DNA of 64,000 bases from Rossellomorea vietnamensis. Lineage in GTDB: Bacteria; Bacillota; Bacilli; Bacillales; Bacillaceae_B. The notes under the pieces were generated by a model that was not told the DNA's origin, ran no database searches, and saw only the letters and a list, made by a program, of their open reading frames with translations. The translations under genes were made by a program, and so were the position numbers. This document shows, in pieces, positions 4,277 through 53,987 of this stretch. The first letter of the stretch is position 1. Every line of letters begins with the position of its first letter. Where the stretch lies: NCBI RefSeq assembly GCF_025398035.1, contig NZ_CP104558.1, forward strand, positions 3,916,001-3,980,000, written 5' to 3'.

Positions 4277-4302
4277 TATTTATAATATAACACTTACATT
4301 CC

Positions 4303-4575
4303 ATGACGAGAACGAGTAGGTATGGAGTCTGTTCTACAGAGAGTTGGCGATTTGGTGGAAGTCAACGTTCAGATCATATTGAATATCCTCTCCGAGAAGC
4401 AAAGCTGAAGATCCTTTAAGCTTTGACGGGTTTCCGCCGTTACAAGGAACGCGTATGATTGTACGTTGAATGAGCGCTGTCACGTAAACTTGAAATCGGG
4501 TTTATGGACAGAATCAGGGTGGTATCGCGGGTTACAAACTCGTCCCTAACTTAGGTTAGGGGCGGGTTTTTTTAT
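4303..4575 (+). ncRNA. T-box leader (isoleucine, ATC specifier) of ileS
   Basis: This leader has the conserved T-box string AGGGTGGTATCGCGG (4516-4530). It is followed by a terminator with arms ACTCGTCCCTAAC (4538-4550) and GTTAGGGGCGGGT (4555-4567) and a T-run. The Stem I region (about 4303-4400) contains GAATATCCTC, giving an ATC isoleucine specifier at 4385-4387. The TGGT bulge (4520-4523) ends in T, which pairs with the A73 discriminator base expected for tRNA-Ile. Uncharged tRNA-Ile should stabilise the antiterminator and switch on the synthetase gene 28 bases downstream. Confidence 0.93.
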
Positions 4576-18383: not shown

Positions 18384-18572
18384 AATAGGCGGAGAAATTC
18401 CGCTTATTTACTAAAAATAACTGAAAATACCTTAGATAGACGGAATAATTCCGACTATCTTCACGAAAAACGTAAAAATGTTCGATTTTGCTTTGCTTAA
18501 CCGGAATATCTCCGCTTATATCCGGAACAAAGCTCTATTCTGCAATTTTAACCGGAAAATTTCCGCTTATTA
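18384..18572 (+). repeat. Palindrome-quartet element, copy A
   Basis: Four palindromes have cores at 18390-18402, 18441-18453, 18502-18514 and 18553-18565, each of the form CGGA-N5-TCCG with AT-rich outer arms. The centres lie 51, 61 and 51 bases apart. Unit 2 has ATAGACGG and CCGACTAT arms, and unit 4 begins TAACCGGAAAA. The same order and spacing recur at 29811 (inverted) and 53476. The element fills the gap between convergent lnrN and the ctaA-like gene. I see no ORF in it. Confidence 0.85.
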
Positions 18573-18622
18573 TCAATGGTTACTCAATCATGGATAAGGC
18601 TTCTTACTAAACTAAATCATAA

Positions 18623-29810: not shown

Positions 29811-29999
29811 AATAAACGGACTTTTTCCGGTTATCATGCAAAATAGGGGTAGTCTTAGGGGAAATAAGCGGAATTTCTCCGTTTAAGGCAAGTCAAAGTG
29901 GCCCATCTTAAAGCTTTTTGAGTAAATAGGCGGAATATTTCCGTCTATTACTCGATATTTCGTGCAGAATTCCTCAATAAGCGGAATATGTCCGCTTAT
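29811..29999 (-). repeat. Palindrome-quartet element, copy B (inverted)
   Basis: Palindrome cores lie at 29817-29829, 29869-29881, 29931-29943 and 29982-29994, with centres 52, 62 and 51 bases apart. Read on the minus strand, the units appear in the same order as copies A and C. The second unit then has ATAGACGG and CCGCCTAT arms, and the fourth begins TAACCGGAAAA. It fills the gap between the convergent GNAT and EamA genes, with no ORF inside. Confidence 0.85.
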
Positions 30000-41281: not shown

Positions 41282-41300
41282 GTAGCAAAGCGAGCAAAGA

Positions 41301-41360
41301 GGGGACGGTTCTTACTCTACTTTTTGAGGGGATGGTAGAGGCGGAACCGTCCCCACTCTT
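41301..41360 (+). terminator. Terminator built from the ACCGTCTCC-type repeat
   Basis: GGGGACGGTTC (41301-41311) pairs with GAACCGTCCCC (41344-41354), with an inner CTCTAC/GTAGAG stem and a short T-run at the end. The arm resembles repeats at 47136, 53744 and 60089. Confidence 0.7.
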
Positions 41361-53396: not shown

Positions 53397-53475
53397 AGTG
53401 AATATAGTAGACAGCCTGTTAAGATAACTAGCACAATTATCGTTAGTGAGATCCGGGTAAGCACCAGAGCTAATC

Positions 53476-53664
53476 AATAGACGGAAAAATTCCGCTTAAT
53501 TCGTCATTACTTTAAAAAAAAGCTGAAATAGACGGAAAAATTCCGCCTATTGACTCAAGAAATACAATATGAGGTGATTTTTCTGTGTGTAAGCGGAAAA
53601 CCTCCGCTTATTTTCCCTCAAATCTAGTTCCAAACTGAATGTAACCGGAAAACCTCCGCTTATA
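53476..53664 (+). repeat. Palindrome-quartet element, copy C
   Basis: Cores lie at 53482-53494, 53533-53545, 53594-53606 and 53646-53658, with centres 51, 61 and 52 bases apart. Unit 2 has ATAGACGG and CCGCCTAT arms, and unit 4 begins TAACCGGAAAA. The element sits between divergent glpP and the SAM-riboswitch operon. Only the glpP remnant, this element and a short repeat (53744) occupy the gap before the riboswitch promoter. Confidence 0.85.
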
Positions 53665-53743
53665 TCCTTGATCGTAAAGTGGGTCCGATTCCGTTTCTAC
53701 CTTCTCCTTTCAAGTAATCTCAATTTCTCTTAAAGCCAAAAAA

Positions 53744-53762
53744 TAGAGTAAGAACCGTCTCC
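53744..53762 (-). repeat. ACCGTCTCC-family repeat
   Basis: TAGAGTAAGAACCGTCTCC is related to copies at 41301, 47136 and 60089. It lies just before the SAM riboswitch promoter. Confidence 0.6.
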
Positions 53763-53800
53763 GGTTTGCCCTCCATAATGAAATATATTGAAAAACAGGA

Positions 53801-53876: not shown

Positions 53877-53987
53877 TCTTCTTATCCAGAGAGGTGGAGG
53901 GACTGGCCCTGCGATACCTCGGCAACGGGTTCTTAATGAATACCGTGCCAATTCCATCAAGTCATATGACTTGAAAGATGAGAAGAG
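53877..53987 (+). ncRNA. SAM-I (S-box) riboswitch
   Basis: The leader contains CCAGAGAGGTGGAGGGACTG, GATACCTCGGCAAC, CCGTGCCAATTCC and GATGAGAAGA, the standard S-box blocks, and P1 is TTCTTATC with GATGAGAA. It is followed by a terminator at 54006. SAM binding should stop transcription of the methionine transport operon. Confidence 0.95.

Follow-up and report, generated by a model that had tools for sequence, protein, structure and literature searches.

A putative portable operator array of four helically phased palindromes between genes of Rossellomorea vietnamensis and other Bacillales

INTRODUCTION

Why should groups of four similar palindromes recur, at nearly the same distances from one another, at three places between genes of one bacterial chromosome? 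The question arises from a 64-kb stretch of Rossellomorea vietnamensis DNA (the window), which spans positions 3916001-3980000 of a 4.52-Mb single-contig genome, so that a window position is the genome position minus 3916000. An earlier note on these letters described three intergenic elements at 18384-18572, 29811-29999, and 53476-53664, each with four palindromes at centre distances of 51/61/51, 52/62/51, and 51/61/52, respectively, and our window scan recovered all three elements and every distance. The core given in that note, CGGA-N5-TCCG, is present in the sites; its stated length fell short, the real site being a longer, 21-bp sequence, TARNCGGARNNNYTCCGNYTA. The core matched 15 times in the window, 12 of them within the three quartets, compared with a mean of 0.90 and a maximum of 4 matches in 100 dinucleotide shuffles of the window, none of which reached 15.

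RESULTS

Three oriented elements in the window

The quartet core of element 1 lies on the plus strand at 18386..18569, where the 21-bp site scan placed four symmetric sites at 18386-18406, 18437-18457, 18498-18518, and 18549-18569. A class-A-type right flank follows it on the same strand (GGTTACTCAAT..GGATAAGGCTTCTTACTAAACT, 18570..18615, with approximate limits drawn by eye); a class-A left flank, also looked for by eye, was not recognised at this element. Element 2 runs opposite to elements 1 and 3, with its core on the minus strand at 29813..29998 (52/62/51 as read on the plus strand) and sites at 29813-29833, 29865-29885, 29927-29947, and 29978-29998, two of which have one mismatch each. 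The core of element 3, again on the plus strand, occupies 53478..53662, with sites at 53478-53498, 53529-53549, 53590-53610, and 53642-53662, and is preceded on that strand by a class-A-type left flank (GAGATCCGGGTAAGCACCAGAGCTAATCAATAG, 53434..53477, limits approximate and by eye). Both the orientation of the elements and the conserved flanks that run past the palindromes had been missed by the earlier note.

Other features were seen in the same stretch. A SAM riboswitch (53879-53984) lies upstream of a MetN-like gene, with element 3 just upstream of the riboswitch, and a T-box leader is found at 4294-4550. A 33-nt inverted pair (41294-41326 and 53737-53769, 88% complementary, GGACGGTTCTTACTCTA..) represents another dispersed repeat, and its second copy sits just downstream of element 3.

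Copies in the host genome and among Bacillales

Eight complete quartets, with at most one mismatch per site, occur in the host genome, at positions 1866368, 2074853, 3180022, 3862069, 3934386, 3945813, 3969478, and 4064597. Broken or remnant arrays lie at 2105385/2107027, 3983209, 4015990/4017580, and 4027149, and a lone one-mismatch site at 1474133 has class-A-like flanks on either side, as judged by eye. The reversed-pattern control yielded no triplets in this genome. The earlier note had set its quartets against palindromes scattered singly and at random, and here the result depends on the length of the site. The bare core does occur singly (126 matches in the genome versus 31 for the reversed control, among the matches listed). 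The perfect 21-bp site never occurs outside arrays or their remnants: a check of each locus assigned all 33 of its 33 copies in the 4.52-Mb genome to a full, broken, or remnant array. When up to two mismatches were allowed, 52 such sites were found in the genome versus 18 for the control.

A candidate autonomous version at genome positions 2105385-2107047 was rejected, as it is an array interrupted by an IS256-family IS with the duplication AATTATTC. A pattern scan of viral contigs matched three contigs, of which one has an IS21 array and the other two share a short repeat. BLAST gave nothing beyond 22-base matches, whether plasmids were queried with element 1 or phages with element 3.

The search of the whole genome and of related Bacillaceae that the earlier note had proposed uncovered a family present across many Bacillales. 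A pattern scan of named genomes, which selected loci by a spacing of 49-54/59-64, gave at least 120 loci; of those listed, 114 belong to Bacillales and six do not (L016, L023, L035, L065, L081, and L085). The genera among the matches listed are Neobacillus, Cytobacillus, Mesobacillus, Robertmurraya, Rossellomorea, Pseudoneobacillus, 'Bacillus sp.', Sporolactobacillus, and Ammoniphilus. After two unrelated loci (L035 and L081) were dropped from 120, the quartet set comprised 118 copies (7 from the host genome and 111 from named contigs, among the matches listed), all of which share one oriented core. In Cytobacillus gottheilii (L107:7061-7925), quartets stand in tandem, with the distances 51/61/51/104 repeated at a period of 267.

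A single-site pattern, free of any spacing condition, was scanned in 397 genomes sampled across the order (135 genera) and was present in 60 of the genomes and 27 of the genera. At least three sites were found in 43 of the 60 matching genomes, and the reversed control matched 8/397 genomes, with one or two matches each. The maximum of 181 was reached in one genome (G337), where these are perfect sites in 4.8 Mb. In the host genus, 17 of 36 genomes matched at a spacing range of 41-71; two of these (G008 and G016) were judged to be chance from their letters, leaving clear copies in 15 genomes and none or chance pairs in 21. The array family is large and apparently undescribed.

Helical phasing

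All intervals of the 118 quartets, a set chosen by spacing, lie within one base of 51/61/51, with means of 51.19/61.15/51.23 (sd 0.40-0.45 bp per interval). These values correspond to 10.24/10.19/10.25 bp per helical turn (~10.2), and the earlier proposal that the distances approach 5, 6, and 5 DNA turns thus extends to 118 copies, whose four sites could face one side of the helix. Because this set had been picked by spacing, the scan was repeated with the single-site pattern. The 29 loci fetched from that spacing-free scan consisted of 18 arrays and 11 single sites, and their 50 neighbour distances were 51 (22 times), 52 (10 times), 61 (16 times), 60 (once), and 111 (once).

A second quartet type, D (genomes G018 and G002), has distances of 51/62/52 and 52/61/51, with one deviating copy at 51/29/52. 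None of 24 comparisons between D spacers and those of elements 1-3 exceeded the maximum of 200 shuffles, one equalled it, and several lay more than 2 sd above the shuffle mean, with six of the 24 involving a locus represented twice; a faint kinship between these spacers may exist. As the D type and the family share their spacing despite spacers that are not significantly alike, the palindromes and their phasing are kept more than the sequence between them.

Conservation at orthologous positions

Seven orthologous sets were assembled, with 29 sequences linked by flank comparison through one or both flanks. Element 2 has orthologues in five further genomes of its genus, although the G032 copy has its fourth site cut by an IS; the set used here joins the host copy to those of G018, G019, G026, and G031. 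Element 3 has a single complete orthologous copy, in G004, with one flank matched.

Across the seven sets, 13/336 contact columns are variable and the R/Y class is broken in 3/112 columns, compared with 43/140 variable columns at the free positions of the same palindromes and 203/715 in the spacers. The contrast is strong for contact versus free (p=5e-15) and contact versus spacer (p=3e-24) and absent for free versus spacer (p=0.61), with columns treated as independent and some members linked by one flank. Gaps affect 9/715 spacer columns versus 1036/2473 columns in the flanks, which may include nonhomologous sequence. Consequently, the earlier observation that the spacers have diverged and kept their length holds, and in orthologues it looks like selection.

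No site of the counted copies exceeded two mismatches, and the BLAST choice of loci itself favours similar copies. The mismatch filter removed 0/26 BLAST-picked loci outside G004 and 1/14 within it; as it removed almost no loci, it accounts for little of the contrast between contact and free columns. On the basis of these alignments, the contact bases and the spacing appear to be under purifying selection.

Transposon shells

Under a loose rule for both classes, 36 of the 118 copies were assigned to class A and 31 to class B, and 51 had no recognised shell. Class B, which we take to be ISL3-like, has the TIR GGCTCTGTTA.., 8-bp AT-rich duplications, and a length of about 275 bp in most copies. 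Both TIR ends were found in 23/31 copies, and the 8-mers outside them were at least 7/8 identical in 13 of the 23 pairs, versus 2.2% for mismatched pairs. Its TIR pattern occurs in 3/36 genomes of the host genus and is absent from the host genome, so class B is not the shell of the window elements.

The other shell has TIRs of the type TAANGGGTTCCGTTT.., 8-9 bp duplications, and a length of 450-690 bp (L281, 450 bp; L121, 455 bp; L273, 656 bp; L275, 689 bp), and such a TIR pair also encloses a 188-bp single-site element (L178). Target duplications match at 9/9 positions in L275 (CTTTTATGG), 8/8 in L121 (GACTTACT), and 8/9 in L273; of the five TIR pairs, those of L281 and L178 showed no clear one. 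The class A flanks appear to belong to this other shell, which every class A copy presumably uses. Since the orthologous intergenic regions have turned over, window elements 1 and 3 yielded no clean target duplication. The arrays are internal to the shells, not terminal. Judged by these ends, two or more different MITE-like shells carry the core, and its status as MITE cargo had escaped the earlier note.

A cassette-type transposon family of the host genus (L357-L362), with the TIR AAAGGGTTCCGTTTTGAGGTGC and mostly 9-bp duplications, encloses small genes whose products were judged, by eye only, to be lipoprotein-like, acetyltransferase-like, and MoxR/DUF58-like. One member, L357, is a TIR-matched 5.8-kb element with a weak IS1-like transposase (an NCBIfam hit below the cut-off and no Pfam hit).

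DISCUSSION

Host sites or selfish DNA

Taken whole, the reading that we find reasonably probable is that of a portable putative operator array, spread by transposons, selected, and working most likely like the BIMEs and REPs of enterobacteria. In each element, four operators would serve a single sequence-specific DNA-binding protein, probably a dimer. With sites 5, 6, and 5 turns apart, four bound dimers would lie on one helix face and could join in one higher-order complex, looped or wrapped, over about 164 bp. Small non-autonomous MITE-like transposons, bounded by terminal inverted repeats and flanked by target duplications of 8-9 bp, would have spread the arrays, and once in a gene-free 3'-end region an array would be kept by purifying selection on its contact bases and spacing. 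Its most likely use would be to load protein between transcription units, in either orientation, in the service of DNA topology or chromosome organisation, and it would act as neither a promoter operator nor an RNA.

Protein binding, the dimeric state of the protein, the joint action of the four sites, and the architectural role are what we infer from this layout. An architectural role in the cell, taken by itself, is the least certain part and is offered tentatively. We consider it rather doubtful that the arrays represent a Firmicutes counterpart of chromosome-architecture sites, with a dedicated putative protein and four phased operators forming a 16-turn unit at gene ends and with the whole system (the protein and dozens of transposon-delivered sites) gained or lost between sister species. 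The all-or-none presence of the arrays among relatives counts against our best explanation, being odd for a useful host function. Furthermore, a free-standing host operator was sought at 11 single-site loci of other genomes (8 touching a predicted ORF and 3 intergenic), and none was convincing. Single matches in one other genus (L368:1501 and L369:1501) share their neighbours, including a regulator-like ORF, and there the match belongs to a long inverted repeat that lies between convergent genes and, by eye, resembles a terminator.

The main rival is that the arrays are selfish, their sites binding a transposase or accessory protein of mobile elements and their conservation reflecting the needs of mobility rather than benefit to the host. 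Such a protein could be IstA/TnsB/MuA-like, with two HTH domains reading two GC-rich blocks one turn apart. The copies are mobile and their distribution is patchy. Moreover, an IS21-family element, found in Phocaeicola (L023:2155-2396) and on an IMG/VR contig (L158:7333-7576), has five AACGGA-N5-TCCGTT palindromes upstream of istA, spaced 52/62/65/52. An excerpt of PMC10122671 describes IstA repeats as two GC-rich blocks about 10 bp apart, and the CGG and CCG of the array sites are likewise centred 10 bp apart. However, the shells possess TIRs of their own, the arrays do not lie at the shell ends, the host genome has no perfect site beyond arrays or remnants, and conservation is visible at orthologous places. 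In addition, when one IstA and one IstB were compared by tblastn with the loci then fetched, matches were confined to L158 and L023. We therefore regard the selfish account as unlikely, and the selected operator array as the better reading.

Selection on contact bases and helical phasing is legible here from sequence alone. The bound protein, if found, could prove to be a new factor in chromosome organisation or transposon control in Bacillales, and it would provide a direct test of whether arrays of interspersed palindromes serve the host or parasitise it.

Duplex or hairpin

The earlier note had also allowed for four tandem RNA hairpins, and an array might indeed act as structured RNA, or as single-stranded DNA, in this form: every site is a near-palindrome able to fold, and REP repeats have been so interpreted, according to an excerpt of PMC3733652. 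The arm consensus of the 118 copies, TARNCGGAR-NNN-YTCCGNYTA, is symmetric, and its TA, CGGA, TCCG, and TA are near-invariant. Arm position 5 is a free mismatch (e.g., C.C at site 4 in 69/118 copies), A.C and G.G mismatches also occur within the stems, and positions 0 and 6 mostly have a purine opposite a pyrimidine, Watson-Crick paired or not. Counts of Watson-Crick pairs at positions 0, 5, and 6 are close to independence in 11/12 cases, the largest excess among these being 57 versus 49.6 expected. The exception, which favours hairpins, is position 6 of site 2 (P2), with 97 Watson-Crick pairs versus 61 expected; this coupling follows subfamilies in part (observed/expected, 28/28.8 in class A, 26/21.7 in class B, and 43/29.5 in the rest). 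Outside the motif, at positions 9-15, some pairs lie above and others below expectation when all classes are pooled.

A selected hairpin should couple its arms and the half-sites of a protein need not, so the little coupling seen favours a protein that reads the duplex. Several further points stand against hairpins. At position 0, the bias toward G.T/A.C suggests opposite strands for P1-P2 and P3-P4, and the orientation of elements relative to tandem genes is random (26 same, 25 opposite). No Rfam family matched the window elements at gathering score, and a search of one array with E values of up to 1 gave two Rfam hits, both far below gathering score. The hairpin alternative is thus unsupported, and we consider it very improbable; the motif would instead be the trace expected of a dimeric DNA-binding protein, as the operator array reading has it.

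Position relative to genes

Placement was scored for 114 elements with ORFs of at least 90 aa, using element-free gaps of at least 250 bp as background and a crude ORF caller. No element (0/114) lies wholly within an ORF; 39 are convergent, 51 tandem, 2 divergent, and 22 at locus ends, and the background gaps are distributed 12/58/33 (convergent/tandem/divergent). Elements are thus depleted between divergent genes (2/92 scorable elements versus 33/103 gaps, p=1e-8) and enriched between convergent ones (39/92 versus 12/103, p=1e-6). The earlier description of the family as dispersed, intergenic, and fixed in its quartet spacing holds. It is hardly credible that the sites are ordinary transcription-factor operators controlling neighbour genes, as the motif resembles a classic symmetric operator but the sites avoid divergent promoters and the window neighbours (ABC permease, CtaA-like, EamA, G3P antiterminator, and MetN-like) are mutually unrelated.

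Arrays as IS targets

The left end of the IS256-family IS had 26 matches in 13/36 genomes of the host genus, and 6 of the 26 represent five insertions located in arrays. Three of the four host-genome copies lie in arrays (2105513, L324; 3860597, L330; 4016108, L334), together with one copy in G031 (C24:17416, L322) and one in G032 (C15:50675, L329, over two contigs). The IS is 1.38-1.47 kb long with 8-bp duplications, and in 4/5 insertions the split in the site falls no more than one base from the junction of ..TAAGC and GGA. The other 20 left ends had no adjoining array, with one side only covered for some of them.

Comparison with known systems

The earlier statement that no described repeat has this layout fits the open-access literature as represented by titles and the starts of abstracts, among the matches listed. 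The letters of the motif retrieved no repeat study from that literature among the matches listed.

The closest likeness in behaviour is to the REPs and BIMEs of E. coli, Pseudomonas, and other bacteria, which are also extragenic palindromes in regular arrays, mostly away from divergent promoters, and take IS insertions at a set point of the palindrome. REP sequences are known as IS targets, the IS256 family included, and often lie between convergent genes (excerpts of PMC1525189 and PMC3733652), and REPs and BIMEs bind gyrase, IHF, and Pol I (excerpts of PMC1525189, PMC2817692, and PMC3733652). In contrast, the array consensus has no counterpart of the GTAG or CGTC tag at the foot of the REP palindrome given in an excerpt of PMC3733652. 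The array stems also show little sign of selected base pairing (with the exception of P2 position 6), and the arrays consist of four sites at 51/61/51 inside MITEs with TIRs and target-site duplications. The Y1 domain PF01797 is found in 36/36 genomes of the genus, whether arrays are present or absent, in a count of Y1 overall with the RAYT subgroup not separated.

Some copies of both shells resemble MITEs in being short and noncoding, with terminal inverted repeats and target-site duplications, and ordinary genes of the genus are likewise bordered by TIRs of the other-shell type, several with 9-bp duplications, as in mobile insertion cassettes. What separates the arrays from MITEs is that one conserved array is found in more than one kind of shell and is maintained once inserted. 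Within Bacillaceae, the Bacillus cereus group likewise has interspersed repeats of 100-400 bp (bcr1-bcr18), the first of which is described as confined to that group and as having a mobility tied to a TTTAT motif (excerpt of PMC6542083). The arrays were set beside the bcr repeats, and beside stem-loop families such as Bhal-1 (excerpt of PMC2267715), at the level of published description. IS21 ends share the bipartite GC-rich sites one turn apart and, in the Phocaeicola IS21-family element, a comparable palindrome spacing; unlike these, the fetched Bacillales loci have no match to that istA/istB. On the features compared here, we rate the arrays as BIME-like in their probable behaviour and MITE-like in transport, and place them outside REP/BIME.
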